DNA of 42,939 nucleotides. Source: a virus. A program made the translations under genes and the position numbers. Below the pieces are notes generated by a model. That model ran no database searches. It worked only from the letters and a program-made list of their open reading frames with translations, and had not been told where the DNA came from. Below are positions 491 through 24,800 of this stretch, in pieces. The stretch's first letter is position 1; every line of letters starts with the position of its first letter. The stretch is from the IMG/VR virus record IMGVR_UViG_3300030419_003506, positions 1 through 42,939 of that record. One strand, written 5' to 3'.

Positions 491-592
491 ATGTCACTCA
501 CCGGTGCACTTTATGCTCTAGAACTTGCCACTAATGGTAATGAAATTCTAGAAGTATTGCAGTTTATTGTTGATGAACAGGAGGCAGAATAA
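491..592 (+). CDS. Very small hypothetical protein (33 aa)
   Basis: A 33-residue ORF (MSLTGALYALELATNGNEIL, then EVLQFIVDEQEAE) ending at TAA 590-592. It is largely one predicted amphipathic helix with an ATNGNEILEVL core, a pattern I recall from other very short cyanophage ORFs. No good Shine-Dalgarno precedes the ATG, which lowers confidence. It lies 70 nt after the previous gene and 28 nt before a terminator hairpin, so it could be the last gene of the unit started at 194-222. Function unknown. Confidence 0.5.
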   Translation: MSLTGALYALELATNGNEILEVLQFIVDEQEAE

Positions 593-619: not shown

Positions 620-651
620 AGGGGTGTTGTTGACAAATAGCACCCCTTTTT
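620..651 (+). terminator. Intrinsic terminator with promoter -35 in its loop
   Basis: AGGGGTG (620-626) pairs perfectly with CACCCCT (641-647) around a 14-nt loop and is followed by TTTTT (647-651). It sits just after the 33-aa ORF. The loop contains TTGACA (630-635), the -35 of the next promoter. Confidence 0.8.
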
Positions 652-659
652 GCTATAAT
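630..659 (+). promoter_or_regulatory. Consensus sigma70-type promoter nested in a terminator
   Basis: TTGACA (630-635) and TATAAT (654-659) are perfect hexamers with an 18-bp spacer. The spacer is the right half of the terminator stem plus its T-run. The start should fall near 666. The next convincing gene begins at 843, leaving a leader of about 175 nt with no ORF that I trust. That stretch (661-842) is richer in G+C in its first half and has two GTTGCCC copies, so a small RNA or a long regulatory leader is possible. Confidence 0.8.
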
Positions 660-842: not shown

Positions 843-1082
843 ATGACTAGTAGTATAGATGAGACAACTTATCACATATACGCAAAAGATAAGGTTCTAT
901 ACTGTAATTTAAGTGAAGAAGATTTTGAAGAGAAATGGGAGATGTTGAATATAATGGTTGGTATATTAAAGACGGATTATTCTCATAGTGATTTGTCATT
1001 TGAGAAGTTGGCACCAAAGGTAGGTTTTGGAGGTCCCGGAAAAGTATTATGGAGTGAACCTGCGGGGGATGATAGTTATTGA
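843..1082 (+). CDS. Conserved small cyanophage hypothetical protein (79 aa)
   Basis: A 79-residue protein with the segment TYHIYAKDKVLYCNLSEEDF, then W-x(2)-L-N-x-MVGILKTDY. I recognise this as a pattern common in small T4-like cyanophage proteins of unknown function. No domain, membrane segment or metal motif is visible. The ATG follows the A/T-rich repeat at 819-841 and has no clear Shine-Dalgarno. The C-terminal part (VGFGGPGKVLWSEPAGDDSY) is Gly-rich. Its stop overlaps the TTG start of the following oxygenase gene, so the two are probably translationally coupled. Confidence 0.75.
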   Translation: MTSSIDETTYHIYAKDKVLYCNLSEEDFEEKWEMLNIMVGILKTDYSHSDLSFEKLAPKVGFGGPGKVLWSEPAGDDSY

Positions 1083-3633: not shown

Positions 3634-4035
3634 GTGCCGTTAGAACGGGTAAGCCAAGGATTTAAAGACATTAGCATGACATTTCAGTCTAATCCACTGA
3701 ATGAAGACCTTATTGCGTTAAAAAATGCTAATGCAATTGCTCGTTCAGTAAGGAATATTGTCTTTACTCTCCCTGGAGAGAAGTTTTTTGATGAAAATTT
3801 TGGATCTAGGATCACCGAATCCCTTTTTGAGAATATTGATGAACTTACAGCTACTGTTATTGTTGATGAAATTCGTCAATCTATCATAAATTACGAGCCT
3901 AGAGTGTCTTTACTTGATGTAAAAGCATTTCCTGACTATGACAACAATAGTTTTGGTGTAAATATTACATATGAGATTATAGGAGCAGATGTTCCTAATC
4001 AAGAACTACAATTTGTTTTGCAATCAAGTAGATAA
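3634..4035 (+). CDS. 25: gp25-like baseplate wedge protein
   Basis: At 133 residues it matches T4 gp25 (132 aa) in length and in the GPW/gp25 pattern: LIALKNANAIARSVRNIVFT, then PGEKFFDENFGSRITESLFE. In T4-like phages gp25 is part of the inner baseplate wedge beside gp6 and gp53 and takes part in starting sheath assembly; it is homologous to P2 gpW and type VI secretion TssE. The likely start is GTG (3634), about 21 nt after a late promoter octamer, with no clear Shine-Dalgarno. The MTFQ downstream is an internal Met, and the SQGFKDIS segment before it is typical of the cyanophage family. It is followed after 2 nt by gp6, its structural partner. Confidence 0.93.
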   Translation: MPLERVSQGFKDISMTFQSNPLNEDLIALKNANAIARSVRNIVFTLPGEKFFDENFGSRITESLFENIDELTATVIVDEIRQSIINYEPRVSLLDVKAFPDYDNNSFGVNITYEIIGADVPNQELQFVLQSSR

Positions 4036-4037
4036 AA

Positions 4038-6032
4038 ATGCCATTAGCCAACTTTTCTAACCTCAATTTTTCTGAGGTTAAGACAACACTTAAAGATTAT
4101 CTCAAATCGAACTCTAATTTTACCGATTATGATTTCGATGGATCCAATCTTTCATCAATTTTGGACGTTTTGGCATACAATACTTACATTACATCATACA
4201 ATGCCAACATGGTGACTAATGAAGTCTTCATTGATACGGCAACTTTAAGAGAAAATATCATTTCATTAGCAAGAAACATTGGTTATGTACCCCGTCCCAG
4301 GCAAGCAGCAAGGGCAACTGTATCGTTTTTTGTAGATACTAGTGGAATTAATCCTTCACCTGCTTCTCTCACCCTTAAAAAGGGTCCTGTGGCAGCCTCT
4401 TCAACTTCATTTGGTGGTTCATCTTACGTTTTTTCAATTTTAAGTGATATTACCGTTCCAGTTTATGATGGAATTGCTTCATTTAACGATGTTTCAGTTT
4501 ATGAAGGAACATTATTAACAGAAACGTTTACTTATAGCACTAGAACTCCAAATGCGAAGTTCGTTTTACCAAATATTGGTATCGATACAGATTTAATTAA
4601 CGTTATTGTTAAACCAACTGAATCTTCTTCAATTGAAGTAAAATATAGTTCTCAAAATAGTCTTTTTGACGTAAAATCTGATTCAACAGTTTATTATTTG
4701 CAAGAAGTAGAAGATGAAAGATATCAAATTTTCTTCGGAGATGGAATTTTTGGAAAAGCACTCGAAGATGGTAATTATGTTAGTGTAGATTACATTACTT
4801 CAAGTGGAGATGCTGCAAATGGCATCAGTGTTTTCAATTTTGCCGGTAAACTTCAATATACTCGTAATGCTGCTACCTATAATGTCACTTCAGGCATTTC
4901 TTTACTTACAACTGGAATAACTTCCTCTGGAGGTGAAGAAATTGAGTCAGTTGAGTCGGTTAGAAAGTTTGCTCCTCGAATTTATGCTTCTCAAAACAGA
5001 GCAATAACAGCAAATGACTATGAATCACTAATTCCAGCAAAAATTTACCCAGAAACGGAGTCAATTTCCGTTTTTGGTGGTGAAGACTTAATTCCACCCC
5101 AATATGGAAAAGTTTTTATTAGCATAAAACCCAAAAATGGTGATTTTATCCCAAATTTGCTTAAAGAAGAGATAAAACTTAAATTAAAGAAATATGCTGT
5201 TGCTGGAATTGTTCCAGAAATCCTTGATTTGAAATATCTCTATATTGAAGTTAATTCTAAGGTCTATTATAACTCAAATCTTGCTCAATCTGCAGCATAT
5301 GTTTCTGCGTTGGTTCAAAACAATGCAAACAAGTATGCAGAGTCTTCTGATATGAATAAGTATGGTGCTAGGTTCAAATATAGTAAATTTGGATCTTTAA
5401 TTGATAATAGCAATGAAGCAATTACTTCAAATATCACTCAAATTGATATTAGAAGAGATTTGAGAGTTGTATTAAATTCTTTTGCAGAATATTCTATTGG
5501 TTTTGGTAATTCCTTCTATATTAAAAGTATGAGTGGGTATAATATTAAATCCTCTGCATTTAGAATTGCAGGAATACAAGAAGATGTATATGTATCTGAC
5601 ATTCCTAATACAAATAAAGTAAATGGAAGTTTATTCTTCTTTACTTTACCTGCAGTTGGATCACAATCTCCAACTATTATTAGAAGAAACGTTGGATTTA
5701 TTGATTACAAAAATGGTGTCGTAACCTTTAATCCAGTTAATATTCAATCTGGAATGCAGAAAGATGGACAAACTGTTATTGAAATATCAGCATCTCCTGC
5801 TTCAAATGACGTTATTGGATTACAGGATCTTTATTTGCAACTAGATATTAGTAATAGTACGTTTGAAACCGTGGTTGATGAAATTGCTTCGGGATTAGAT
5901 CCATCAGGGTCTAATTATATTACATCTGCAAGTTATCCTAATGGTAACTTAGTTCGTTCTGGAGGTCGTAATACTACTCCGAATGTAGCAGCAACTCCAG
6001 CTGCTCCTTCAACTATTGCTCTCAACTACTAA
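4038..6032 (+). CDS. 6: Baseplate wedge protein gp6
   Basis: 664 residues, close to T4 gp6 (660 aa). The N-terminus (FSEVKTTLKDYLKSNSNFTD, then YDFDGSNLSSILDVLAYNTY) and TNEVFIDTATLRENIISLAR are the typical gp6/gpJ-family segment. FFGDGIFGK and ITANDYESLIPAKIYPETES are further landmarks of baseplate J-like proteins. gp6 dimers form the continuous ring that holds the wedges around the central hub and drive the dome-to-star transition. The ATG follows the gp25 stop by 2 nt, so the pair is probably coupled. The last 40 residues are Pro/Ala/Ser-rich and look flexible. No internal disruption is seen. Confidence 0.95.
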   Translation: MPLANFSNLNFSEVKTTLKDYLKSNSNFTDYDFDGSNLSSILDVLAYNTYITSYNANMVTNEVFIDTATLRENIISLARNIGYVPRPRQAARATVSFFVDTSGINPSPASLTLKKGPVAASSTSFGGSSYVFSILSDITVPVYDGIASFNDVSVYEGTLLTETFTYSTRTPNAKFVLPNIGIDTDLINVIVKPTESSSIEVKYSSQNSLFDVKSDSTVYYLQEVEDERYQIFFGDGIFGKALEDGNYVSVDYITSSGDAANGISVFNFAGKLQYTRNAATYNVTSGISLLTTGITSSGGEEIESVESVRKFAPRIYASQNRAITANDYESLIPAKIYPETESISVFGGEDLIPPQYGKVFISIKPKNGDFIPNLLKEEIKLKLKKYAVAGIVPEILDLKYLYIEVNSKVYYNSNLAQSAAYVSALVQNNANKYAESSDMNKYGARFKYSKFGSLIDNSNEAITSNITQIDIRRDLRVVLNSFAEYSIGFGNSFYIKSMSGYNIKSSAFRIAGIQEDVYVSDIPNTNKVNGSLFFFTLPAVGSQSPTIIRRNVGFIDYKNGVVTFNPVNIQSGMQKDGQTVIEISASPASNDVIGLQDLYLQLDISNSTFETVVDEIASGLDPSGSNYITSASYPNGNLVRSGGRNTTPNVAATPAAPSTIALNY

Positions 6033-6049
6033 GATAGAATAACTATAAA

Positions 6050-9000
6050 ATGGCAACTAAAAAAGTCCAGTTTAACAACATAGTTCAGAATCAGCTTCCT
6101 CAATATGTGAGGACTGATTATCCCTTAGTTTCCGATTTTTTAAAGACATACTATCAAGGGCAAGAGTATCAGGGTGGTCCTATTGACCTGATTCAAAATA
6201 TTGATGAATATGTAAAGGTTGATGAAACTACTGACCTAACTCTTCATGTTGGATTGGGTGCATCTGTTGGTATTACCAGTGACACCATTCAAGTTGATAT
6301 GCAGAAGTATCCTACAGGAACTTTGGGATTCCCAAATTCTTATGGATTACTGAAAATTAATGATGAGATTATTACATATACAGGAATAACAACTTTTGCT
6401 TTTACTGGATGTATTAGAGGATTTAGTGGTATTACTTCTTATAGTAGTCCTACCAATCCAGAAGAATTAATTTTTGAATCTACTGATGCAGAAGAGCATG
6501 ATAAAGGAGATACTGTACAAAATTTAAGTTCTCTTTTCCTTAAAGAATTTTTAGTTAAAACAAAACATCAACTTACACCAGGATTTGAAGGAAGAAATCT
6601 TACATCAAAGTTAAATCAGAATATTTTTATAAAACAAGCAAAAGATTTCTATCTAAGTAAAGGAACAGATAGAGGTTTTGAAATTTTATTTAAATCTTTA
6701 TATAATGAAAATGTAAAAATTGTAAGACCATCAGAATTTCTTTTTACACCATCTAATGCTAATTATAAAATTACAAATGATTTTGTAGTTGAACCAATCC
6801 ACGGAAATCCAGAAAATCTTGAATTTTCTACTTTATATCAAGATGGTTATGGAGGTACTTTTGAGAAGGCATATGCACCAATTACTAATATAGAGACAAT
6901 TCAAGTTGGTGCTGGAAAAACATTTTATAAGTTTAGTATAGATGCTGGATATAATCGAGATAGTGGAGTACAAGGTGTTACTTATGGTACTTTCCATGTC
7001 CATCCCAGAACCAGATTAATTGGTGAAGTAGGAGCAGGTACTACTGTTATTGATGTTGATTCTACTGTAGGGTTTGGTACAACCGGAGAACTGTATTTTA
7101 ATTATGTTGATAATACAATAGGAGTAACTTCTTATACTTCTAAAAACTTAACTCAATTCTTTGGAATAACTGGTTTAGGTAAAACTATTGCAGATGAAAC
7201 TACCATTGGAATTAACACTTTTGCATATGGCAAATCTTCTGTAGATCCTGATGAAACAATTGAAGTAAGAATCACATCTGTTCTTAATAGTCTTGAATTT
7301 TCTGGAAATAACTGTCTTTATGGATCGGGTGATACTGCTAAGATTAAAACTTTGGGTGTTGGTAATACAAGCTTTAAAGCAGCTGATTGGTTCTATAATA
7401 TTTCACCAACTTATAAAGTAAAAAGTATAGTTCTTAAAGATTCTTCTGATTGGACTTACGAAGTTAATTTGGGTGTTAAACACGACTTTAAAATTGGAGA
7501 CAAATCAGTTGCGGTATTTACAGGAACTGATGGTGTATCATTACCTATTTCTAGTATTACGCAAATAACTTCAGATACTTCCTTTATTATAAAAGGTCAG
7601 GGATACATTAATACAGACGATACTTATATTGTTGAGAGGCAGATTTTAAAATCTCATGCCATTAATTATCCTGGTGCTTCCATATATGCTACAAATGTTC
7701 AAAATGTATATCAAAAGAAAGGTTCACCAAATCTTTTAGTTGCTTCTTCTTCTATTCCTACATATGGATCTCAATCATTAGGTCTTGCAGGAGGAGAATT
7801 TGTATTTAATGGAACCTTTAGTGGTGATGAATTTAAAGTTATAACCAATTCAACTACCACTCCTACTGGTGTTCCTGTTGCTGATCATGGATTCTATACA
7901 GGAGATGCTGTATATTATACTCCTCAAATAATTAACAATCCTTTTGTTGATCCTACTAGTGGAACCTCTATAGACAATTTTGAAGTAAGATCTGGATTGT
8001 TTGATGCTACTAAAGATGATGAAGGTCTTTATTTTGTTCAAAGGGTAAATGCAACTACATTAAAGTTTGCAAAAAGTAGAACTAACCTTGCTGATGGTAA
8101 ATTTGTTTCTGTTAATACTAATAGTAATACAGGTATTGTAACTGATAATAAGATAGGTCCGTATGATTTTAATAATAAGACTTTAAAATCTCAGAAATTA
8201 TTAAGAGAAATCGCAGATCCAGTTAATACTGGAACAATTGATGAAACTACTCCAGGAACAACGGGTATATTAATTAATGGAGTAGAAATTTTAAATTATA
8301 AATCGTTTGATCAAGTACATTATGGAAAACTTGAAAGTATTGATGTTTTGGCTCCTGGAAGTGGATATGATGTAATTAATCCACCATTGGCTACCATTAC
8401 TGATACTATTGGAACTGGTGCAACTGGATATGTTGCAGTTTCTGGAGAATTAGAAGAAATTAGACTTATTGATCCTGGTTTTGATTATGAAGCTGCACCT
8501 ACTGTAAAAATTTCTGGTGGTAATGGATCTGGTGCTCGTGCTAAAGTTAATATGCACTTGATAGAACATTCTGTTTCTTTTGATGCCACAATAAACACTA
8601 AGGTTGGTTTAGGAACAACTGTAGGATCTTCTTATTCACAAAGTCTACCTTCGACAATTGGATTTAGTACTTACCATAAGTTTAGGAATGCTGAGGAAGT
8701 TATATACATTACTGATGGTCAAGATGTTATTGGTGGATTAACAACTAATGCAACTTATTTTGTTTCTCAGGTAGGTCCTTCTACAGTAAGATTGCATACT
8801 ACTGAAGCTGGTGCTAGAGCAGGAATTAATACTGTTGAACTAACTTCTTTTGGAATAGGTAAACAATATTTCAGGTCTGTTAGTAAAAAATCTATAGTAG
8901 AGTCTATCAATATTATATCTGGTGGAACAGGATATCAAAATAAGAAAAGGACCACTACTCCTGCAGGAATTAATACCTCTTTAAACAGTATTAATATCAA

Positions 9001-12000
9001 AAATCATGAATATGAATCAGGAGAAATTGTTAATTACACCTGTAATGGTACATTTATTACTGGTCTTACAACTTCTACTGATTTTTATGTAACAAAGGTT
9101 GATAATGATAATTTCAAATTATCTAGTGTTGGGGTAGGAACAACATCTGCTGATTTTTATTATAATACTCAACAATATCGCAATTTAGAATCAGTTGGTG
9201 TAGGAACACATATTTTCAATTATCAAGATATTACTGTATCTCTAGTCGGTAAAGTTGGAATAGATTCTATTGGTGTACATACATTTGAGGCCGAAGTTCA
9301 ACCCATATTCCGAGGTGAAATTACTTCTATACATTTAGAAGATAATGGTGTGGGTTATGGTTCTTCAGAAGTTGTTAATTTCATTAAGGAACCAGGAATA
9401 TCACTATCTTCGGGAATTAATGGTCAAGTTACTCCTACAGTACATAAAGGAGAAATTATTGCTGCTTATGTGGTTAATGGAGGAGAACAATATATTTCTC
9501 CACCCAATTTAGTCATCAATGGAGATGGTTCTGGTGCTGTTCTTACTCCTTTAATGAAAACAGTTGGAGTAGGAACTACAGCACAATATGTTATTGATAA
9601 AGTTAAAGTAATTGAAAAGGGAAGTGGATATACCCAAGAGAATACCACTATTGATGTTATTGCTGCTGGGACGGGAGTACAGCTTCGAGCAAATATTCAA
9701 AAATGGAATGTTAATTTATTTGAAAAATACTATCAGACTGAACAGATTGTTGATGATGATGGATTTATTAAAAAAGGATTGAATAGTGAGTATGAGTTGC
9801 AATATGCTCATCTTTATGCTCCTAGGAAACTTAGAGAATCTGTATATGCTACTAATCAAGAAGGACAATCTTTATATGGAGAGCCTGATTTAAGAAAGGT
9901 TAATGGAATAGAAGCTCCTTCTAGTAATCATTCTCCTATTATTGGATGGGCATATGATGGAAATCCAATATATGGTCCATATGGATATTTGACCAAATCT
10001 GGTGGTACAGTAGCTCAGATGAAGAGTGGGTATGTACAAGAAGCATCCATTAAAGAAAATAGACCTTCTTTAAGTGTATTCCCTGCAGGGTTCTTTATTG
10101 AAGACTTTACATATAAAGAAGTAAATGATGAAACTATTCTTGATAAAAACAATGGAAGATTCTGCATAACACCAGAATTTCCAAGTGGAACTTATGCGTA
10201 TTTTGCCACTATTAGTGATGGTGGATCTGAGCAGGGTGGTAAATTTAATTCCTTTAGATTGCCAGTTTATCCATATCTAATTGGTCATAATTATCAATCC
10301 ACTCCATTAGCATTTAACTTTAATTCTCAATCCAATCAAGATCAATATGAATTAGGTAATTCTGATTGGTGTAGGATCACTACTCCTTATAATTTGGTAG
10401 AAGGGGATCTTAATTATCCTTATATACCTATTCCTAATAAATTATCTCAAACTGTAGATGTTAAAGGAATAGAAGCTGGTTCGATTGAAAATATTGGGAT
10501 AGTAACTGGAGGAAAAAATTATCAAGTTCATGAACCTTTAGTGTTTGATAATGATCGTACAGGAGGAACATTTGCTAAAGCTAAGATTTCTAGACTTCAT
10601 GGTAAAAATGTAACTAGTGTAAGTGCTGCTACAAGTACTATTAGTAATGTTGAAATTTATCCATCAGAACAAAAAGGAAAATATCAACTTATTTCTGAAG
10701 AACCTCATAATTGGGTTAATACTAATATTATTACTGTTACTGGATTATCCACCACTTCTTCAAAAATTGAAGGGACTTATGTTGCTGGTATTAGCTCTAA
10801 TCGTCTTACTTTAGCTGGAGTTGGAACAACAGCAGTTGCAATTGGAACTGATGGTGCCACAGGAATTGTTACTCATTTTGATGTTTCTGGTAATCTTGAA
10901 GATACTAAAATTAGACCTAATGATATTCTTGGAATAGGAACAGAACAAGTAAAAGTACTAAATGTAGAGCCTCTCTTATCACGAATTAGAGTTCTTAGGG
11001 CTTCTAATGGAGTAACAGGAGTTTCTCATACGGTTACTACAGAGATTTTAGAAGATCCAAGAAAGATTATAATAAATGCCGGATTTAATTCAACTTATGA
11101 TTATAGAATAAACGAACAGATTTATTTTAATCCTGTTGATTCTGTTGGTGTATCTACTTTATCTGGGGTAGGAATTGGATCAACAATAGTCTTTACTAAT
11201 CCTGGAATAGGATTAACTGAGATCTTTGTTAAGAGTAAATCCATTTATCTTCCAAACCATCAATTAAAAACTGGAGATCAATTAACATATTCTCCTAATG
11301 GTGGAAGTGGTATTACTATATGGGAAGATGGTAAAGCAGGAGCTGCAGCTGGAGTAAGAACTCTAGTAGATGGTCAGACAGTCTTTGCTGCTGTTGTATC
11401 AGCAGATGTAGTGGGTATATCCACTTGTAAGGTAGGTATGGGTACTACGGGTACTTTTGTGGGCATTGCAAGCACACAGAGGGACTCCACAACGGTCTTC
11501 TTCTCTGGCATTGGTACAGGTGTATACCACAGCTTTAAAACCAATCATTCTAAGATAACAGGAGAACTCTTTAGAGTTACTGCTACTGTTGCAACTGGCC
11601 AAACTCATGGATTATTGAATGAAGAACATGTTTATGTAAATGTAAGTCCTGGAATATCTACTACTGTTGTAGTTCAATATAATGATTACAATCGCAGAAT
11701 TGTAGTTGATCCAAAATCATTTACAGCATCTGGAGTTAATACTACTACAAATGCACTTACTATAACTGATCATGGATTTGAAACTGGAGATAAAATTATT
11801 CACACATCTTCTGATGTTTGTGAAGGTTTAACCGATAATGCAATTTATTATGTAATAAAAGTTGACAGTGATAGTTTTAAATTATCTGATACTTATCATG
11901 AAGCAACTGAACTTAAACCAAATGTTGTTGGAATTGCTTCTACTGGTTCAGGAACTATTAGTCAAATTAATCCATCCATTAAAGCATATAAGAATCAGAA

Positions 12001-15000
12001 TTTAGTTTTTGATCTTTCTCATTCATCTTTAGGATATAGTCATCAATCTACAAATTATCCTGCATTTAGGATGAATTTGTATAAGGATGAAAACTTTACC
12101 AAGATATGGGATACTTCTTTAAGAAGTAATGTATTTAATGTAACTCGAAATGGAACTCCAGGTGTATCAACTGATGCTAATGTAACATTGGCCGTAAATG
12201 AGTATATACCTGATATTTTATTCTACAAATTTGATCCAGTTTATGAAAGTACTCTTCCTACAGTAAAAGCAGAAATTGTTGTAGATTCAACTGTTCTTTC
12301 TGGAAATGAAGTTCAAACTTTAGAAAGTGCATATAATGGTAAACAACAAATTACTGTAGCTTCTACTAATTCCTTTACTTATACTTTAGATAAGATTCCT
12401 GAAAGACTTGCTTATGGGTCTACATCTAATCTATCATATGAGACCGATAGTACTACTGCATATGGATCAATATCGAAAGTCACAATAACCAATCCTGGTG
12501 GAAATTATTTGGCTCTTCCTGGTATTTCAACAATTACAACTGTAGTAGGAAGTAGTGCAGTTCTTGAAGCACAAAGTACTTCGATTGGTAAGATTAAGAA
12601 AGTAAAAATTAACGATATTGGATATGATTTCCCTTCTGATACTACTTTAAAACCAAGTGCTGCTTTACCACAGATTGTTAAAATAGATGCTTTAACATCG
12701 TTCGAATCTGTTGGAGTAACTTCTTTTGGTAGGGGATATGTTTCTGCACCTGAATTAATAGTATTGGATGGAAAGACTAATAAAGTCATTTCAGATATTG
12801 ATCTTAAGTATACTCTTGGAAATCCTGAAGTAGAAATTTTAAAGAATACTTATGGTATTACTAATACACCTCCTACAATTATTCCTGATAGAAACTCTAA
12901 TGGTGTAGGAATTAACACAGTTGGATTTAATACTGTTTCTAAGGATGTAACTGTTACTTTATCTGTTGGATTTAGTACTGCTGATTCCTTCCCATTTGGA
13001 GTTGGTGATAATGTATATGTTGAAGGTATTAGTGTAGGAGTGGGGACAACTGCTAGAGGATATAATTCTGAAGAGTATGGTTATAAATTATTCACCTTAA
13101 CTGCAGTTGATGAGAATTATGGTGGAATAGGAACGGTCACTTATAACCTTTCTGATTACTTTACCAGTGAAATGGCTCCTGAACTTACACCAGGACAATA
13201 TGATTCAATTAATTCAGTAGGAAGAATAGTTCCAGAAAAGTATTTCCCATTATTTGATGTTAAATTACGTCCTAATGATTTTGTAAAGGGTGAAACTGTT
13301 GTTGGTTCTATTAGTAGTACAAAAGGAACAGTTGAAAATTGGTATCCAAATACAGGAATTTTAAGAGTTTCTTCTGATGAAAATTATGTGATCGATGATG
13401 TTCTGGAAGGATTATCCTCTAAAACACAAGGAGTTGCTTCTTCTATAAAATCATTCGATTCTTATATTCTTACTAATGCTTCTTCAAGGGTAGAAAGTGG
13501 ATGGGAGACTGATTCTGGATTCTTTAATAAGAATTTGCAACGAATACAGGATAGTGATTATTATCAAAATCTTTCATATTCAATAAGATCTAGAGTTGAT
13601 ATGGATACCTGGGATGATCCTGTATCTACTCTTAATCATACTTTAGGATTTAAGAAATTCTCTGATTATCAATTAGAGTCTATACCATCTGAGAAAAATT
13701 CTTTAATTGTTGGATTATCTACTGAATTATCTGATTTTAGTGCTGTTAATGATTTGTATAGTATTGGTGATACAAATTGTGTATATGATTTTGATTTAGT
13801 AAAAGAAAATGCTTTAACAGTTGGTTCTAATACCTTATCAAATGAAATAACATTTTCCAATCGTATTTTACAAGATTATCAAGAATCTGTAGGTAATAGA
13901 GTTGTATCTATTAATGACTTTAGTGGAACATTTAATAGTTTACCTAGAGCAACTCGATATAATGTAGTTGATACATTTACTTTATCAGATAGAAGAGCAT
14001 TAAAGTATATTACTTACGTCAGAGATAAAAGATTTACTGCTCAACGACAATTGATGATTGTTGATATTCTTCATGACGGAGCTTTATCATATATTAACCA
14101 GTATGGAAGAGTAGAGAGTATATATGATCAAGGATCATTTGATTTCTCTATTAGTGGTGATGAGGGTCAATTAGTCTTCTATCCTGAGAGATATTCGGTT
14201 AATGATTATTGGATTGCGAATCTTTCTTACAATTTAGATGATAATCTATTAAGTGCAGGAAGTACTGTTATTGGACCTTCTTTAATTGATAATGAAAGTG
14301 TTACTTTATCTGGAATAGGAACTACAACAGTTGTAGGTATTGCTAGTACTTATAGATCTGCCAAAGTGATGGTAGCAATTAATCCAGATCAAGAATATAC
14401 TGAATATGAATATACTCAACTGAATATTGTTCATAATGGAGATGAAGTTGAGGTTATGGAATGGGGTAGAATGATTACCACTCCAGATAGCTGGGCTACT
14501 TCTGGAATGGGAACATTCCGTGGTTATATTGATGGATCAAACTTAAAAATCGATTTCATTCCTAATTCTGATGTTGGTATTGGTACAACTGGAGTAATTA
14601 ACACTACTGTTGTTGCCATGGGAGATTCTACATCTACTGGCATAGGAACAGTTGATCTTAATCATGCAAAACTTCAATGCAACACAACTGGTATTGCTAC
14701 AGCTGGATCTCCAGGAATTAATACAGTTGCTCAGTTTAGTTCTGATTATGAATGTGCTTATTGCTTCATTCAGGTTACAGATGCCACTAATCAAGCATAT
14801 CAATTCTCTGAATTTGTTGTTGTAACTGACTTTGTGAGTGGTGAAACAACAGAGACCTTTGATACTGAATGGGCTAATGTTTATTCTGGTAATGCTGGTC
14901 TTGGAACTCTTGGTTCTAAGTGTGATTCATCAGGAACTGTTTCTATTCTCTTTACACCTAATGCAAGTATTGATACACAAGTAAATGTGTATATGAATGC

Positions 15001-18000
15001 ATTAAAGATTGCTGATGATACTAAGAGTGTAATTGATCTAGGAAATGGTTATATTCAATCTGGATTTGGAGATTATACCGGAACAGAAAGTGATATTAAG
15101 AGATCTTTCCCATTAGAGCATAGAGATGATCCTATTTTTGAAAAATCATTTGATGGTAGTGATAGTTCTATAGTAAGTGCTTCAGATAATACTGTTATTC
15201 TACCAAATCATTTCTTTGTAACTGGAGAGAAGATTACTTATAATCATGCTGGTACTGGTAAAACAATGGCAGTCGGTATTGCGACTACTAGTGGATTTGT
15301 TGGAGTTGGTACAACTAATAAACTTCCTGGAAATGTCTTTGCTGTTAAAATTGATGATGATACGATTAAACTTGCAGAAACTGCTGAGAAAGCATTAAAG
15401 ACTGTTCCTGAAGTAGTAGATATCACTAGTGTTGGTATTGGTACTTCTCATAGATTTAATGCTATTAATCAAAACGCAAAAGTTATGGTTGCGTTGGATA
15501 ATATTATACAATCTCCTATTGTATCAACATCGGTTACTACTCATTTAACTGATAGTGTACTTACAACTGATGATACGATTAATTTTGCGGGAATTACTTC
15601 TTTCTATGGTGCTGATTTAATTGAAATTGGTAGTGAAGTAATGCGTATTGATGCAGTTGGTATTGGGACAAGTGCTAACCAAGTTAGAGTTAAGAGACCA
15701 TGGATGGGAACTGCTTTAGCTGGATATGGAACTGGAACTCTAGTTACTAAAGTTGATGGTAATTATAATATTGTTGATAATACAATTAACTTTGCTGAAG
15801 CTCCATATGGTTTAATTCCTCTCAGTACTTCTACAAATGCACCAGATGATAGAGATTGGGTAGGTATTGCAACTGGATCTAGCTTCCAAGGAAGAATGTT
15901 TATGCGTTCTGGTGTTCCAGACACTGCTAATGAGTCTTATTATAGAAATTATATTTTTGATAGTCTTTCTGCTCAATTTACGGGACAAAAATCTGAATTT
16001 ACTTTACAGTCTGAAGAATCAAATGTATCTGGATTGACTACTGATAATGCTATTATTCTTGTCAATGATATCTTCCAGACTCCTGGATCCACTAACGAAT
16101 ATACTTTACAAGAAGGAACAGCAGGAGTTACCACAATTACATTTACTGGAACTGGATCTTCTGTTCCAGGAGCACCTAACGTAGGAACTCTTCCTATGGG
16201 TGGAATAATCGTTTCTGTGGGGTCTACTGAAGGATTTGGTTATCAACCCCTTGTAGCAGCAGGAGGAACTGTTACAGTCTCTACTGGTGGTACTATTAAG
16301 TCTATCAGTATTGGTAATACTGGATCTGGATATAGAGCTGGTATTCAAACTGTTAATGTTGGTATTAAAACTCTCAGTCGTACTGGAACCAACGTAATTG
16401 GAATTGGAACAGCACAAATCACCACTGGTCATATTACAGGGATTGCTGTTACCAATATGAACCATCTATTCTATTCACCTAGAAAGGTTGCGAATGTTGG
16501 ATATAGTTCTGTAACAGGCATTTCTACTATTACTACACAGACAGATCATGGATTGTCTAATGGTGATGAAGTTGCAGTATCTGGTATTGCCTTTACTTGT
16601 GATTATGCTGGTAGGGTAGGAATTTACACTGCTGTTTATGACAACAGTTCTGGTATTATGACTGTGACCACAGCAGTTGGCCATGGTTTATCAACAACAG
16701 GACAAAAGAGTGTTGTTATCTTTACTGGATTAGGATTTACTTGTGGATTGGATGGTGGATCCAATATTCATTATTATCCACGAGGTGAAGATAGAGCATA
16801 TGATAATGCAGTTTCAATTACCAAAGATGGATCTGATTATACAGTAAGTGATGCTGTATATAATCCCACAACTGGTATAATGACATGCACAGTTGCATCT
16901 CATGGATTCACTAATGGAGATAAAGTTAAATTTGGATTAAATTCTTTAACCTTTACTTGTGATAAAGATAGTCACGGTAGTGAGCATACTTATCCTAGAG
17001 AAAGTGATACTATTGCTGGTCAATGGATTACCATTTCTAATGTAACTACAAATACATTTAGAGTTAATGTTCTACCAGTTGCACCTTCTACAAATACTGG
17101 TGTTCATACATTTGTTAGAGCTGCTACTGATGGATTAACACATAATGATGGAGATATTGCAATTGATGTTGGATATGCTAATGTAGGTGATCAATTTACT
17201 CATCAATTTGTTTCTGCTACTTCAGGTGCTATTGTTGCTGGTGGTGCTTATCCTCATCGATATGTAAGTTCTGTAAATGGTGCTGTTACTAGTGGTGGCA
17301 ATTACAACCATACATTTGTAAGTGCAGGTATTGGAAGTTTGAATGTTGTTGGTGTTGGAACCACAACTGCTACAGATGCCACTTATGATGCAACTACTGG
17401 TAAGTTAGTTTTAACTATTCCAGGTCATGGTTATTCTGTTAATGATACTGTTGGAATCGATACTGGTTCTATAGTATTCACTTGTGCGATGGATAGTTAT
17501 ACAACTAACAAGTCATATCCTCGTTCAGGCGATCCTGTTGGATATCCAACAGCCATTACTGCAGTAGATACCAATACAATTACTGTTAATGTTGGTATTT
17601 CTACTTTAGTAAATCACAATGTTACAGATGCTACTTATAATGCTGATACGGGTGCTTTAGTTCTTACAATTCCTTCACATGGATTAGATGCAGACACTAG
17701 TGTAAGGTTGAAGCAAGATAGTTTATCATTTAGGTGTTCAATGGATGATTATGCATCTATTCATACCTATCCAAGATATACTGATCCTGGATTTAGCACT
17801 GCTATCAATATAGATTCTAAGACTTCAGATACTATTACTTTAAATGTTGGAACATCGAAGACTGCCAACTATAGTATTTCTACTGCCACTTATAGTGCTT
17901 CTGTTGGTATTTTAACAGTTGCCATTGGTGCTGGTCATAGTCTCTTGAAGGGTCAAAGTATTAAGATTGGAACTGAATCATTGAACTTCAGGTGTTCTAG

Positions 18001-20227
18001 AGATAATTATGCAACTGTTCATAGATATCCTAGAAAACCAGATCCTTATTATACAGGAACTCCTGTTACTGCTGTTAATAGCACTACACAATTTGAAGTT
18101 AATGTTGGTGTTGCAACGGTTCCTACTTATTATGTCGGATTTGGTTCATGTCAGGCTGCTATTATTGCTCCTAGAAAGAGTAATGAATCTGCTAGTGGAT
18201 TTGATCCTGCTATAGATGGAAGTGAAGTTCTACGTATTGTAGATTCCAAGACATTTGAAGTTAATAGTGGAGTATCTACTAGAAATCATATCTACGCAAG
18301 AGGAGGATATGTTAATGGGTATTCTAAGGTTGTCTTTGATGATCCACTTTCCTATTCTGGTATGGCAGTAACATATGCTACTGGTAGCACTGGAATTGGA
18401 ACAGGTGCTGAAGTTGATATTGTAGTTGGTCAAGGATCTAGTGTTATTAGCTTTACTGTTACTAAGACTGGAAGTGGATATGGTAATCTTGAAAAACTTA
18501 CAGTTCCTATTGGTGGAAATACTGGAATTCCAACTGATCCAAGTAAATCATTTGTAGAATTCTATCTAGAGATTCAAGAGACATTTAGTGATGAATTTAC
18601 TGGATGGTCTGTGGGTCAATTGCAAGTTACTGATAATGTTGAAAGATATATTGATGGAAGTAGAGTTGATTTCCCATTAACTGTTAATGGAGACACTCTT
18701 TCTATTGTTGCCAAGAAAGGATCTAAGATTGTTGAACAAGATCTCTTACTTGTCTTTGTTAACAATATTCCTCAAGTTCCTGGTAAGGGATATAAGTTCC
18801 CAGGTGGAAGTGTAGTTACATTTACTGAAGCACCTAAGATTGGTGATACTATTGAGATTATCTTCTATAAGGGAACTGGATCTGAAGATGTGGTGGAGAG
18901 AGCAGTTCTAGAAACTGTTAAAGAAGGTGATAGTTTAACTATTGGTCGTCTAGAAAGTCAAGATACTTGGTTACAAGAAACTGTACGGGTTCCATTAAGT
19001 GTTAATTCTACAGATCTTGTTAAGACTCCTCCATATTATGGACCAGGAAATAGTGGTGATTCAGATCTTCAAAGACCTATTGTATGGTGTAGACAGACTG
19101 AAGATAAGATTATTAATGAAAAAGGAGTTGGTAAAGATAGAGAAATCTATGAACCAGTTATTAATCCTAGATCTAATATTATTAAATCTGTGGGATCTGG
19201 ATCTACTAACATCTATGTTGAAAGTTTGAGACCATTCTTTGATCCTCAGGATGAGGTTTTAGGAACTGCTACTGTTGATTTTACTTTCCAGAAGAAAGTT
19301 AAGTTTATTTCTCAAGAGAATAAGAGTGTTGCTATAGGAACTGCTATTGTTTCTGGTTTAGGAACAATTACTTCTGTTGCTATTTCGGATGGTGGTGTTG
19401 GATATAGCACTGCTACAGTAAGTTTTGCAACTACTTCTATTGATGGAACTGAAGTTGGTGTTGGATCTACATCTACCACAGCATTTGGTTCTCCAATAAT
19501 TGGTGCTGCTGGAACAATTACTGGTATTGCAATTACTAGTATTGGAGCAGGATATACATCATCCAATCCTCCTGCTGTTCTTATTAGTCCACCAGTTTGG
19601 TCTGAGGAGGAAAATAAGATAACTAGTTACAGTGGAGATGATGGTATAGTTGTTGGTTTTGGAACTACAACTGTTGGAGTCTCAACTGGATATCAATTAA
19701 TTTTCGATCTTCATATACCACTCAGTTCTGATCTAAGAAATTCTACTATTGCAGGAACTGCGGTTACTATTAGTGGAATTAGCACTGGTGATTACTTTGT
19801 TATTAATGATTCTAATGTGGGAATCGCAACTACTTCTATACGTTCATATGCATCTGATGGTGCTACTATCGGAATAGGATCTGCATTCGTAGATAATGTA
19901 TATGAGGTTAATACCTTTGAGATTGTTAATATCCCTACGGGTGTTGCAAATGATGGAGTAGGAATAGGAACCTCTCATTGTAAGAGAGTATTTGTTAAGA
20001 TTGGTGACAACTTTACTTGGGATGGTGGTTGGCCTTCCTTCAGTGGTGTTGGAATTCAAACTGGTAATTATTTTGGATCATATAGTTGGGGTAAGATCAT
20101 TCTTCCATCTAGATCTGAGAGTAATTCTTATAATGCTTATACTGATGGAGGAGTTGGCGGAATCTCTACTTCTATGGTTGTAAGAAGATCTGCTGCTCTG
20201 AAGTTTAAAAACTTCAAAAGTTCGTAA
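6050..20227 (+). CDS. 7: Giant modular baseplate wedge protein at gene 7 position
   Basis: 4725 residues, far larger than T4 gp7 (1032 aa). I assign it to gene 7 by position between gp6 and gp8 and by its N-terminal segment (about 1-245, KKVQFNNIVQNQLPQYVRTD onward), which is typical of cyanophage gp7-like proteins. Modules visible in order: GxGY beta modules from about 765 to 1190, 2146-2230, 3420, 4138 and 4444-4500; a YHYH-type domain (about 1289-1414; GWAYDGNPIYGPYGY, TPEFPSGTYAYF); DHGF-x-TGD modules that end in VDxDxFKLS; a RIQDSDYYQNLSYSIRS landmark near 2498; three related beta modules near 2646, 2772 and 2904; a Cys/YPR repeat array (3484-4020); and a VNGDTLSIVAKKGS-type domain near 4200. 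It probably forms the wedge periphery and may bind cell surfaces. The reading frame is uninterrupted over 14 kb. Confidence 0.85.
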   Translation: MATKKVQFNNIVQNQLPQYVRTDYPLVSDFLKTYYQGQEYQGGPIDLIQNIDEYVKVDETTDLTLHVGLGASVGITSDTIQVDMQKYPTGTLGFPNSYGLLKINDEIITYTGITTFAFTGCIRGFSGITSYSSPTNPEELIFESTDAEEHDKGDTVQNLSSLFLKEFLVKTKHQLTPGFEGRNLTSKLNQNIFIKQAKDFYLSKGTDRGFEILFKSLYNENVKIVRPSEFLFTPSNANYKITNDFVVEPIHGNPENLEFSTLYQDGYGGTFEKAYAPITNIETIQVGAGKTFYKFSIDAGYNRDSGVQGVTYGTFHVHPRTRLIGEVGAGTTVIDVDSTVGFGTTGELYFNYVDNTIGVTSYTSKNLTQFFGITGLGKTIADETTIGINTFAYGKSSVDPDETIEVRITSVLNSLEFSGNNCLYGSGDTAKIKTLGVGNTSFKAADWFYNISPTYKVKSIVLKDSSDWTYEVNLGVKHDFKIGDKSVAVFTGTDGVSLPISSITQITSDTSFIIKGQGYINTDDTYIVERQILKSHAINYPGASIYATNVQNVYQKKGSPNLLVASSSIPTYGSQSLGLAGGEFVFNGTFSGDEFKVITNSTTTPTGVPVADHGFYTGDAVYYTPQIINNPFVDPTSGTSIDNFEVRSGLFDATKDDEGLYFVQRVNATTLKFAKSRTNLADGKFVSVNTNSNTGIVTDNKIGPYDFNNKTLKSQKLLREIADPVNTGTIDETTPGTTGILINGVEILNYKSFDQVHYGKLESIDVLAPGSGYDVINPPLATITDTIGTGATGYVAVSGELEEIRLIDPGFDYEAAPTVKISGGNGSGARAKVNMHLIEHSVSFDATINTKVGLGTTVGSSYSQSLPSTIGFSTYHKFRNAEEVIYITDGQDVIGGLTTNATYFVSQVGPSTVRLHTTEAGARAGINTVELTSFGIGKQYFRSVSKKSIVESINIISGGTGYQNKKRTTTPAGINTSLNSINIKNHEYESGEIVNYTCNGTFITGLTTSTDFYVTKVDNDNFKLSSVGVGTTSADFYYNTQQYRNLESVGVGTHIFNYQDITVSLVGKVGIDSIGVHTFEAEVQPIFRGEITSIHLEDNGVGYGSSEVVNFIKEPGISLSSGINGQVTPTVHKGEIIAAYVVNGGEQYISPPNLVINGDGSGAVLTPLMKTVGVGTTAQYVIDKVKVIEKGSGYTQENTTIDVIAAGTGVQLRANIQKWNVNLFEKYYQTEQIVDDDGFIKKGLNSEYELQYAHLYAPRKLRESVYATNQEGQSLYGEPDLRKVNGIEAPSSNHSPIIGWAYDGNPIYGPYGYLTKSGGTVAQMKSGYVQEASIKENRPSLSVFPAGFFIEDFTYKEVNDETILDKNNGRFCITPEFPSGTYAYFATISDGGSEQGGKFNSFRLPVYPYLIGHNYQSTPLAFNFNSQSNQDQYELGNSDWCRITTPYNLVEGDLNYPYIPIPNKLSQTVDVKGIEAGSIENIGIVTGGKNYQVHEPLVFDNDRTGGTFAKAKISRLHGKNVTSVSAATSTISNVEIYPSEQKGKYQLISEEPHNWVNTNIITVTGLSTTSSKIEGTYVAGISSNRLTLAGVGTTAVAIGTDGATGIVTHFDVSGNLEDTKIRPNDILGIGTEQVKVLNVEPLLSRIRVLRASNGVTGVSHTVTTEILEDPRKIIINAGFNSTYDYRINEQIYFNPVDSVGVSTLSGVGIGSTIVFTNPGIGLTEIFVKSKSIYLPNHQLKTGDQLTYSPNGGSGITIWEDGKAGAAAGVRTLVDGQTVFAAVVSADVVGISTCKVGMGTTGTFVGIASTQRDSTTVFFSGIGTGVYHSFKTNHSKITGELFRVTATVATGQTHGLLNEEHVYVNVSPGISTTVVVQYNDYNRRIVVDPKSFTASGVNTTTNALTITDHGFETGDKIIHTSSDVCEGLTDNAIYYVIKVDSDSFKLSDTYHEATELKPNVVGIASTGSGTISQINPSIKAYKNQNLVFDLSHSSLGYSHQSTNYPAFRMNLYKDENFTKIWDTSLRSNVFNVTRNGTPGVSTDANVTLAVNEYIPDILFYKFDPVYESTLPTVKAEIVVDSTVLSGNEVQTLESAYNGKQQITVASTNSFTYTLDKIPERLAYGSTSNLSYETDSTTAYGSISKVTITNPGGNYLALPGISTITTVVGSSAVLEAQSTSIGKIKKVKINDIGYDFPSDTTLKPSAALPQIVKIDALTSFESVGVTSFGRGYVSAPELIVLDGKTNKVISDIDLKYTLGNPEVEILKNTYGITNTPPTIIPDRNSNGVGINTVGFNTVSKDVTVTLSVGFSTADSFPFGVGDNVYVEGISVGVGTTARGYNSEEYGYKLFTLTAVDENYGGIGTVTYNLSDYFTSEMAPELTPGQYDSINSVGRIVPEKYFPLFDVKLRPNDFVKGETVVGSISSTKGTVENWYPNTGILRVSSDENYVIDDVLEGLSSKTQGVASSIKSFDSYILTNASSRVESGWETDSGFFNKNLQRIQDSDYYQNLSYSIRSRVDMDTWDDPVSTLNHTLGFKKFSDYQLESIPSEKNSLIVGLSTELSDFSAVNDLYSIGDTNCVYDFDLVKENALTVGSNTLSNEITFSNRILQDYQESVGNRVVSINDFSGTFNSLPRATRYNVVDTFTLSDRRALKYITYVRDKRFTAQRQLMIVDILHDGALSYINQYGRVESIYDQGSFDFSISGDEGQLVFYPERYSVNDYWIANLSYNLDDNLLSAGSTVIGPSLIDNESVTLSGIGTTTVVGIASTYRSAKVMVAINPDQEYTEYEYTQLNIVHNGDEVEVMEWGRMITTPDSWATSGMGTFRGYIDGSNLKIDFIPNSDVGIGTTGVINTTVVAMGDSTSTGIGTVDLNHAKLQCNTTGIATAGSPGINTVAQFSSDYECAYCFIQVTDATNQAYQFSEFVVVTDFVSGETTETFDTEWANVYSGNAGLGTLGSKCDSSGTVSILFTPNASIDTQVNVYMNALKIADDTKSVIDLGNGYIQSGFGDYTGTESDIKRSFPLEHRDDPIFEKSFDGSDSSIVSASDNTVILPNHFFVTGEKITYNHAGTGKTMAVGIATTSGFVGVGTTNKLPGNVFAVKIDDDTIKLAETAEKALKTVPEVVDITSVGIGTSHRFNAINQNAKVMVALDNIIQSPIVSTSVTTHLTDSVLTTDDTINFAGITSFYGADLIEIGSEVMRIDAVGIGTSANQVRVKRPWMGTALAGYGTGTLVTKVDGNYNIVDNTINFAEAPYGLIPLSTSTNAPDDRDWVGIATGSSFQGRMFMRSGVPDTANESYYRNYIFDSLSAQFTGQKSEFTLQSEESNVSGLTTDNAIILVNDIFQTPGSTNEYTLQEGTAGVTTITFTGTGSSVPGAPNVGTLPMGGIIVSVGSTEGFGYQPLVAAGGTVTVSTGGTIKSISIGNTGSGYRAGIQTVNVGIKTLSRTGTNVIGIGTAQITTGHITGIAVTNMNHLFYSPRKVANVGYSSVTGISTITTQTDHGLSNGDEVAVSGIAFTCDYAGRVGIYTAVYDNSSGIMTVTTAVGHGLSTTGQKSVVIFTGLGFTCGLDGGSNIHYYPRGEDRAYDNAVSITKDGSDYTVSDAVYNPTTGIMTCTVASHGFTNGDKVKFGLNSLTFTCDKDSHGSEHTYPRESDTIAGQWITISNVTTNTFRVNVLPVAPSTNTGVHTFVRAATDGLTHNDGDIAIDVGYANVGDQFTHQFVSATSGAIVAGGAYPHRYVSSVNGAVTSGGNYNHTFVSAGIGSLNVVGVGTTTATDATYDATTGKLVLTIPGHGYSVNDTVGIDTGSIVFTCAMDSYTTNKSYPRSGDPVGYPTAITAVDTNTITVNVGISTLVNHNVTDATYNADTGALVLTIPSHGLDADTSVRLKQDSLSFRCSMDDYASIHTYPRYTDPGFSTAINIDSKTSDTITLNVGTSKTANYSISTATYSASVGILTVAIGAGHSLLKGQSIKIGTESLNFRCSRDNYATVHRYPRKPDPYYTGTPVTAVNSTTQFEVNVGVATVPTYYVGFGSCQAAIIAPRKSNESASGFDPAIDGSEVLRIVDSKTFEVNSGVSTRNHIYARGGYVNGYSKVVFDDPLSYSGMAVTYATGSTGIGTGAEVDIVVGQGSSVISFTVTKTGSGYGNLEKLTVPIGGNTGIPTDPSKSFVEFYLEIQETFSDEFTGWSVGQLQVTDNVERYIDGSRVDFPLTVNGDTLSIVAKKGSKIVEQDLLLVFVNNIPQVPGKGYKFPGGSVVTFTEAPKIGDTIEIIFYKGTGSEDVVERAVLETVKEGDSLTIGRLESQDTWLQETVRVPLSVNSTDLVKTPPYYGPGNSGDSDLQRPIVWCRQTEDKIINEKGVGKDREIYEPVINPRSNIIKSVGSGSTNIYVESLRPFFDPQDEVLGTATVDFTFQKKVKFISQENKSVAIGTAIVSGLGTITSVAISDGGVGYSTATVSFATTSIDGTEVGVGSTSTTAFGSPIIGAAGTITGIAITSIGAGYTSSNPPAVLISPPVWSEEENKITSYSGDDGIVVGFGTTTVGVSTGYQLIFDLHIPLSSDLRNSTIAGTAVTISGISTGDYFVINDSNVGIATTSIRSYASDGATIGIGSAFVDNVYEVNTFEIVNIPTGVANDGVGIGTSHCKRVFVKIGDNFTWDGGWPSFSGVGIQTGNYFGSYSWGKIILPSRSESNSYNAYTDGGVGGISTSMVVRRSAALKFKNFKSS
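9916..10290 (+). other. YHYH-type domain inside the giant protein
   Basis: Residues about 1289-1414 contain IIGWAYDGNPIYGPYGY, LDKNNGRFCITPEFPSGTYA and a closing YF, the hallmarks of the YHYH family (PF14240). The namesake YHYH is replaced here by YAYF. The domain is found in bacterial secreted proteins and cyanophage structural proteins; its ligand is not known to me. Confidence 0.7.
16500..18110 (+). repeat. Tandem 84-86-residue Cys/YPR modules
   Basis: Six related units within the giant ORF, the first incomplete. Each has HG(L/F/Y) followed by a strand pair, then F-(T/R)-C at about 16590, 16738, 16954, 17478, 17729 and 17987. In five of the six, D then YPR-x(2)-D follows. The last three units are 84-86 residues apart. 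DNA identity is low, so the duplication is old or diversified. One Cys per module is conserved. Confidence 0.8.
17201..17362 (+). repeat. Three 18-residue repeats (54 bp period)
   Basis: Units start exactly 54 bp apart at 17201, 17255 and 17309 and follow H-x-(F/Y)-VS-x(3)-GA(I/V)-x(2)-GG-x-Y. They interrupt the Cys/YPR array. Each His lies at the same place and the preceding residue is T, P or N. The pattern suggests three rungs of a beta-helix or a His-rich fibre segment. Confidence 0.75.
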
Positions 20228-21825: not shown

Positions 21826-24800
21826 ATGCCACAGCAAACAAACTTAAATGTAGCTCCATATTTTGATGATTTTGATGCATCGAATGATTTCTATCGGGTA
21901 TTATTTAAACCAGGATTTCCGGTCCAAGCTAGAGAGTTAACAACTCTTCAATCTATACTGCAAAATCAGATTGAGAAGTTTGGTCAGCACTTTTTTAAAG
22001 AAGGTGCAAAAGTAATTCCAGGAAATACAGGATATAATCAAATTTATTATGGTGTTCAGATAAACAATAATTATCAAGGAATTCCTGTATCTGCATATGT
22101 AGATCAATTAGTAGGAACAAAAATAACAGGGCAAAGATCTGGAGTAACCGCTGTTGTAGATAAAGTTCTTTTAGCTGATGATTCTGAAAGAAATCAACTT
22201 ACTCTTTATATTAATTACTTACAATCTAGTACTTCTAATAATTCTACCCAAACTTTTGCAAATGGTGAAGAATTAACATGTTCTCAAATAATAACTTCAG
22301 GTTTATTAGGTAATACTGCAATTGAAGTTGGAGCTCCATTTGCTATTACTATTGCCAATAATGCATCTGTTACAGGGTCTTCTTTCCAAATCCAAGATGG
22401 TGTATATTTTGTAAGAGGACAATTTTGCCAAGTAAATCAAGAAACTCTTATTCTTGATCAATATGGTGATACTCCCAATTATAGAGTCGGTCTCTTCGTA
22501 AACGAAGAGATTATTAATGCTGATATAGATGAATCATTAAATGATAATTCTCAAGGATATAATAATTATGCTGCACCAGGAGCTGATAGATTAAAGATTT
22601 CTTTAAGCCTTTATAAAAAATCATTAGATGATTTTGACGATAGTGCTTTTGTTGAATTAGCAACTATTAATGATGGTGTTCTAAGAACTAAAAAACCAGG
22701 TAAATCTGGTAGTGGTGGTGGATTAGTAGGAGGATTTACAGGTGGTTCTGGTTTATGGGATATAACTGATACTCTTGCAAGAAGAACTTTTGATGAGAGT
22801 GGTAATTATGATGTAAGACCTTTTGATGTTACAGTTTTAAACTCTTTAAATGATAATGTTGGAAATAGAGGGGTTTTCCAGGCTGGTCAATTTACTCCTG
22901 GTGGTGAGGTTCCCTCTGATGATTTAATGCTTTATAAATTATCTCCTGGTAAAGCATATGTGAAAGGGTATGAAATTGAAATGACATCCCCTACATTTAT
23001 CGATGCTCCAAAACCTAGAGACACAAAATTAGTAGAAGGTCAAAATATAATTTATAATACTGGTCCTACTGTAAGAATTAATAGTGTTTATAGAACACCA
23101 ACTGTAGGTATTGGTAGCACTTATGTTTTAAGTTTACGAGATCAAAGAGTTGGTGTTAATTCAGAAACTGCTCCTGGTAATGAAATTGGTCTTGCTAGAG
23201 TTTATGATTTTAGATTAGAATCTTCATCTTATGACACATCCAATGCTGCTCTAGATGAATGGGATCTTTCATTATTTGATGTACAAAGTTTTACTGATAT
23301 TAGTTTAAATCAATCAATTACACAAGCAGTTCCTGCATTTATTGAAGGAAAACGAAGTGGTGCCACAGGATTTTTAAGAGGATCTGTAACTGCTGGAACT
23401 GCAGTTACTGTATATGAAACAGAAGGTAACTTTATTAAAAATGAACCAATTATTATTAATGGTGTTGATAATGGAAGAATTTGTATAGGAATTACGGAGC
23501 ATTCTATATCAGATGTAAAATCCCTATATGGAACAGACGATGGAGTTGCGGGTATTAATACTTTTAGTGCTAATATAATCCCTAAAACTTTATTTTCTGT
23601 CGGGGTTGCTACTATTGGACTTGATCAAGGGGCTGCTGGAACGAAAATACAAAGTACAAATCTAGATTTCCCAGGAATTACTACTATTGGTAATTTGGTT
23701 CAATATAGTGATATTGCTATATCTGATGATCCAATTTTATCAAGAATTATCAGTGTTGGAACTGATCATGTAACTGTTGTTGGAGTTACAACTGTATCTG
23801 GAATTTGTAATGGTGGATTACCTACTAAAGCTTCTGGTATTACAAGTGTTACACCTTATAGGAATGTAAATGACCTTAAGATAGTAGGTACAAAATTAGA
23901 AAGTTCTTCTGATAACACTTTATTTACAATTCTTCCAAAACGTAATATATCTGATGTTGATTTGACCGATGGAACTATTATTATTAGAAAAACATTTACA
24001 GTTACAATCACTGATGGTGTAATTGATAATCCTGTTCCAGAATTGCCAACTGGTGAGACTTTCCAACCATTTACTCCCAAGAGATACTCTTTAATAGGAG
24101 CAGATGGAAAAACTCATGATTTGACTGAAGATCAATTTGATTTTGGAACAAATGGGAATCAATGTGCTATTCGTGGATTAACGAGTCCTCCTACTGCCAA
24201 TAAAGGTGCAACTCTTATTACTACGGTTAAGAAACAGAAACCAAAGGCTAAGAAAAAGGTAAGAAATAGAGTTAAGACACATGTTGTGAATTATTCTAGC
24301 CAAGTAGGATCTGGTATTGGAACTACAACTTTAAATGATGGATTAACTTATGGAAGTTATCCATTTGGAACTAGAGTCCAAGATAAAATTATTTCTATTA
24401 ATGATCCAGATGTTATTGAAATTCATGGAATTTATGAGTCAGCTGATACTGGTGAGGCATCTTGTCCTAAAGCAGCTTTAGGTTCAATAGTTACTCAATC
24501 CACAACAACCAATGAATTGATTATTGGGGAAGAACTGATTGGTGTAGATAGCGGAGCTGTTGCTATTGTAGCCGATAAAATAAATGATTCTACCATTGCG
24601 TTCTTATATAAAAATCAGAATCTATTTAAAGAAGGAGAAACTGTTAATTTCCAAGAATCTGATGCATCAGCAGTAATTACTACTCTTGATTCTCCTAGTT
24701 TTAATATATCACCCAAGTATGTCTTTACTGATGGACAAGATGCTACTTTCTATGATTATGGAACTATTAAGAGAAATGCAGATGCTGTAGCACCATCTAA

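Follow-up and report, generated by a model that had tools for sequence, protein, structure and literature searches.

Can one short stretch of phage DNA both end a transcript and begin the next and, if so, what would it do for the phage? The question is raised by positions 620-659 of a 42,939-base IMG/VR record (IMGVR_UViG_3300030419_003506; "the window" below means this whole stretch), a fragment of a T4-like cyanophage whose relatives belong to the Kyanoviridae. An earlier note on this DNA had described a consensus promoter nested inside an intrinsic terminator and suggested that the 40-bp element could act as a switch between the leftmost small genes and the next unit. We favour, with a probability of roughly 70%, the reading that the element is a compact terminator plus restart promoter placed between tandem gene groups, a nested cyanophage form of the promoter-early stem-loop (PeSL) cassettes reportedly found in T4-like phages.

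The positions originally given for the stem arms, TTGACA, TATAAT, the T-run and the 18-bp spacer all proved right (Table 1). The outer stem (A620-G626 with C641-T647) is perfectly paired, as had been claimed, but what was taken for a 14-nt loop pairs on (T-G, T-A, G-T, T-A, T-A), giving a stem of 12 bp closed by GACA, with TTGACA spanning the stem top and loop at the hairpin apex. The predicted fold has an energy of -18.6 kcal/mol (z -5.4; none of 200 shuffles equals it), or -21.6 kcal/mol with its flanks. A further component, absent from the earlier note, is the T651 G652 C653 ahead of TATAAT (654-659), which makes this an extended -10. What follows the G+C-rich hairpin immediately is TTTTT, the arrangement of an intrinsic terminator; the run is only five T long, however, and its first T (647) is paired with A620, so that the terminator is predicted to be moderate rather than textbook. 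An Rfam search with the element gave no match and a tRNA search of the region found none. The window holds three promoters matching both hexamers at 12/12 positions, against 0.11 per dinucleotide shuffle, and all three (at 194, 630 and 1648) lie on the + strand within the first 1.7 kb. Those at 194-222 and 1648-1676 have no hairpin, and consensus-like promoters are also found upstream of the gene at 1701 (PHROG 1574) in isolates.

Table 1. Features of the 620-659 element and of its gene neighbourhood (window coordinates)
Feature	Position	Strand	Basis
Upstream small ORF, 33 aa, MSLTGALYALELATNGNEILEVLQFIVDEQEAE	491-592	+	translation
Predicted terminator hairpin, 12-bp stem, loop GACA	620-647	+	scan, fold, arm covariation in relatives
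-35 hexamer TTGACA, within hairpin	630-635	+	6/6 match; kept in diverged relatives as arms change
T-run, predicted 3' end near 651	647-651	+	sequence
Extended -10, TGC + TATAAT, predicted start near 666	651-659	+	6/6 match with TG
First downstream ORF, 79 aa, PHROG 2626	843-1082	+	PHROG E 2.7e-13
Baseplate wedge subunit (PHROG)	3634-4035		PHROG match
Baseplate wedge subunit (PHROG)	4038-6032		PHROG match

The element lies between two small ORFs. The stop codon of the 33-aa ORF is 28 nt 5' of the hairpin, comparable short ORFs occupy its position in related loci, and its transcript is the one that the terminator would end. Downstream, about 177 nt of leader separate the predicted start from the 79-aa ORF; leaders at other nested elements are shorter, most of their next ORFs beginning some 25-32 nt past the -10. 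Within this leader, about 75 nt past position 666, is a near-invariant noncoding motif, CCCTAACCTACA(gAgGTGACA), at 742-761 (CCCTAACCTACAGAGGTGAC), with an A-run some 20 nt ahead of it. The motif occurs once per genome in five cyanophages (0-2 mismatches); Syn9 and P-SSM4 each contain a single close match. It is also present in P-SSM2 and S-SSM7, and recurs on the + strand at dozens of IMG/VR loci near genes preceding the gp25/gp6 baseplate cluster. It has no Rfam match and is a candidate leader-RNA or DNA site. Beyond the baseplate wedge genes of the window come a single ORF of 4725 aa (6050-20227) and a second very long one of 2535 aa (21826-29433).

The earlier note expected hexamers and stem to be conserved in related phages. 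DNA-level BLAST of positions 430-740 against phage records returned chance matches only; we therefore located homologues through the 79-aa ORF, which has relatives at 66 loci, and added five isolates, anchoring all sites on the conserved motif (window position 743). A consensus promoter and a hairpin both recur at the homologous position, with varying geometry. The -35 lies inside the hairpin in the window, L002, L005, L018, L019, L042/L043, L055, S-SM2 (arms CGCGGGG...CCCCGTG) and SynMITS9220M01 (GGCGGG...CCCGCC); in L010, L011 and L021 it is the -10, not the -35, that occupies the loop or its margin. L008, L009, L014 and L015 keep a hairpin without the promoter, and in about half of the versions the promoter persists but no strong hairpin surrounds it. 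A small MAFFT alignment, in which the stems fell into different registers, was set aside and covariation was assessed by swapping arms. Among 19 versions less than 80% identical, nine have a strong hairpin (score 20 or more) over the -35, against a mean of 1.07 and a maximum of 5 in 300 trials with swapped left arms, indicating that the arms covary whilst the hexamers stay. The outcome that would have refuted the note, hexamers and stem without any conservation, was thus not observed, but the T-run is kept in some relatives only: apart from the window, a clear one directly behind the -35 hairpin is seen in no versions but L005 and L019 (stems of -16 to -19 kcal/mol in all three), most homologous hairpins having none (L002, L042, S-SM2 and SynMITS9220M01, for example), and terminator strength is therefore not conserved at this locus.

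Further clues come from elsewhere in cyanophage genomes. We scanned T4, RB49, KVP40 and ten T4-like cyanophage genomes, of which Bellamy was covered as far as 200 of its 205 kb. Around cyanophage consensus promoters, hairpins with T-runs peak at the -35 (one 15-nt bin holds seven, most of the rest 0-2), with a second small peak of five at +30 to +45. When the hairpin region had to contain a -35 of 5/6 or better and the T-run had to be followed by a -10 of 5/6 or better, 13 of the 208 terminators in the ten cyanophages and the window were nested, against 0.61 in shuffles (maximum 4) and 2.1 with permuted tails (maximum 6); neither T4 nor RB49 has a nested element at this stringency. A -35 of at least 4/6 with the TG extension accompanies 15 cyanophage terminators, where 0.25 would be expected, and TGC-TATAAT behind terminators is found in other cyanophages also. 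The overall -10 peak behind terminators (59 versus 32 expected) owes part of its height to A+T composition, as an opposite-strand control indicates, and we relied on the extended -10 and nested -35 counts alone. Individual copies include AGAGGAACCCTTGACAGGGTTCCTTTTTTACTATATAAT in S-SM2 (167151) and Bellamy (184228), AAGGGGAGTTTACAACGCTCCCCTTTTTGCTATAAT directly past gp32 in P-SSM4 (1923), one at the end of regA in P-SSM2 (142801) and one 5' of hli in S-PM2 (124309). Arm sequences differ between copies even within one genome.

For a separate test set we searched IMG/VR with the 16-mer TTTTTTATGCTATAAT, a pattern picked after the isolate examples had been seen but containing neither hairpin nor -35; matches sharing an identical 30-nt upstream sequence were counted once, and some of the contigs are related to each other. 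Among the matches listed, a hairpin precedes the 16-mer in 91 of 112 distinct matches, and at 51 of the 112 it encloses a correctly spaced -35 that matches at four or more of six positions. Control patterns gave hairpins in 0/55 (reversed tail) and 3/71 (scrambled) matches, and a nested -35 in none of either set. Proteins matching T4-like cyanophages are encoded at 44 of the 51 nested loci among the matches listed. In bacterial genomes, the 16-mer stands behind a hairpin in 25 of 117 matches; such a -35 accompanies it in two of the 117 at a threshold of 4/6, and in none at 5/6. An exact IMG/VR search for the window's own core gave no match.

The recurrent elements sit at gene junctions. Of 70 nested elements listed, 64 are preceded by an ORF whose end lies inside the hairpin or no more than 80 nt before it, and 65 are followed by a same-strand ORF starting no more than 330 nt from the -10. 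In P-SSM2 (142801), P-TIM68 (152765) and S-PM2 (124309) the TGA of the nested -35 (TTGACA or TTGACT) is the stop codon of the upstream gene; the idea that this shared stop is a feature of the elements was dropped, as it holds for 8 of 70 against a background of 7%. Some of the junctions are also places where homology begins. Between S-SM2 and Bellamy, alignable sequence starts at about the element preceding hli03, the upstream genes being different; in two pairs of IMG/VR loci, identity of 93% over 517 nt (L249/L337) and 87% over 507 nt (L246/L304) runs from the element onwards, preceded by unrelated sequence. In other pairs homology runs through the element on both sides, so homology starting at the element is a frequent but not universal pattern. 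Pairs of lower identity whose similarity ends at the element are weaker evidence, because intergenic DNA diverges faster than genes. Such breakpoints, seen at copies other than that of the window, are what module shuffling would be expected to leave.

Taken together, these observations suggest how the element would work. RNA polymerase arriving from the left small genes would transcribe both arms, the RNA would fold and the T-run would release it near 651. The same DNA would be read as a strong sigma-70-type host promoter, with its -35 at the hairpin apex, the T-run in its spacer and the extended -10 behind, and a new transcript would begin near 666 and run into the 79-aa ORF and what follows. 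Because it would begin downstream of the right arm, the new RNA would carry neither arm, form no hairpin and escape termination by the element; stop and restart would thus not conflict on the same RNA. Such elements would double as joints at which upstream modules were exchanged. That one 40-bp element may end one transcript and start the next, as the earlier note proposed, is well supported at the level of sequence by covarying arms, invariant hexamers and recurrence both at unrelated junctions and in independent viral contigs. Architecture, covariation, recurrence and, at other copies, homology breakpoints can be read directly from the DNA; both signals probably act in infected cells, the promoter early. 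For the window's own copy we infer function from its class, the statistics of which rest on consensus matching.

How do other readings fare? That promoter-like and terminator-like sequences overlap here by chance might be entertained given how readily A+T-rich phage DNA yields consensus matches (71 weak promoter-like sites in 20 kb, below the shuffle mean of 95), yet 12/12 matches are rare, and nested elements exceed every shuffle run and the control patterns; we rejected this very improbable explanation as contradicted by these controls. Nor does the inverted repeat look like a protein operator instead of an RNA hairpin. Repressor sites typically sit over the -35, as this repeat does, but an operator would keep its letters, whereas here the arms differ between relatives, and between copies in one genome, with pairing preserved; T-runs and G-U pairs likewise fit RNA. 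This reading, too, was rejected and is extremely unlikely to be right.

The remaining alternatives keep the promoter. It might be the only part that matters at this locus, the hairpin being in decay or serving a non-terminating purpose such as protection of the upstream RNA 3' end: promoters there are well kept while most homologous hairpins have no T-run. We consider this unlikely in view of the T-runs and stable stems of the window, L005 and L019 and of the strict tie to T-runs elsewhere in the class, a tie owed partly to search design. The switch of the earlier note, in which a promoter-bound and an elongating polymerase exclude each other so that the element alternates between terminating the left unit and initiating the right one, did not find support and seems to us rather improbable. 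The geometry does allow one occupant at a time, mutual exclusion at the element is plausible, and a bound polymerase might act as a roadblock that aids termination. Against this, both signals point the same way and their sequences are compatible, the RNA from about 666 would have no arms, neither a regulator site nor an alternative RNA fold was found, and conservation gives no hint of two regulated states; either half has been lost independently in relatives, a pattern hard to reconcile with a coupled switch.

A terminator with a restart promoter, the reading that we prefer, has a counterpart in the PeSLs. These are said to recur between small genes, to join a stem-loop terminator to an early promoter that is strong and sigma-70-like and, as composite terminator-promoters, to mediate module shuffling by recombination at the cassette; RB49 is reportedly the phage in which they were described. 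The window element likewise has what appears to be a strong sigma-70-like promoter (12/12 hexamer positions and an extended -10); its stem-loop and T-run would terminate, and some cyanophage copies other than the window's lie where homology begins. RB49 orders its cassettes differently, however: the promoter follows the terminator, the -35 of 11 cases falling at +26 to +43 relative to the centre of the hairpin, with no nesting. In the window and in other cyanophages the promoter is nested in the hairpin, and arm sequences vary between cyanophage copies. We therefore place the element beside the PeSLs, as a variant that would work in their manner, rather than among them, and treat the nested cyanophage form as a new variant provisionally. 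Nesting also occurs in the Vibrio phage KVP40, as three or four variants of a different form, among them near-identical hairpin-promoters, AAAGGGTTGAC...GTCA(A/G)CCCTTTCTTGTATTAT, at the distant sites 85859, 100194 and 121377 (AY283928). They resemble the window in having the -35 within the hairpin and the -10 just behind a T-rich tail (e.g. AAAGGGTTGACTACGGTCAACCCTTTCTTGTATTAT), but place the -35 in the left arm instead of at the apex, have a shorter tail and lack the TG extension. Nested forms of this kind may already have been described in the PeSL literature; a passage in PMC4503421 discusses the cassettes of T4-like phages briefly. For 16 cyanophages, Sullivan et al. (2010; PMC3037559) predicted promoters with BPROM and terminators with TransTermHP, that is, the same kinds of signal in the same phage group, flanking pstS genes for example; there the signals were predicted independently, and the relevant passages do not mention overlap or nesting. 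Our literature search found no cyanophage paper with mapped RNA ends.

A bolder version is that marine T4-like cyanophages possess a distinct nested class that interleaves hairpin, -35, U-run and extended -10 within 40 bp, all four under selection at once, and that serves as transcript stop, restart promoter and crossover joint for module exchange; nesting would itself be functional, the polymerase at the promoter aiding the upstream stop, for instance. This we advance tentatively, at rather less than even odds. If elements of this kind work as proposed, closely packed cyanophage modules could be insulated from one another and expressed anew at hardly any cost in DNA, and module exchange between ocean viruses, including that of photosynthesis-related genes such as hli, would carry a recognisable sequence mark. 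Predicting promoters and terminators separately in cyanophage genomes would then hide what may be one combined element.
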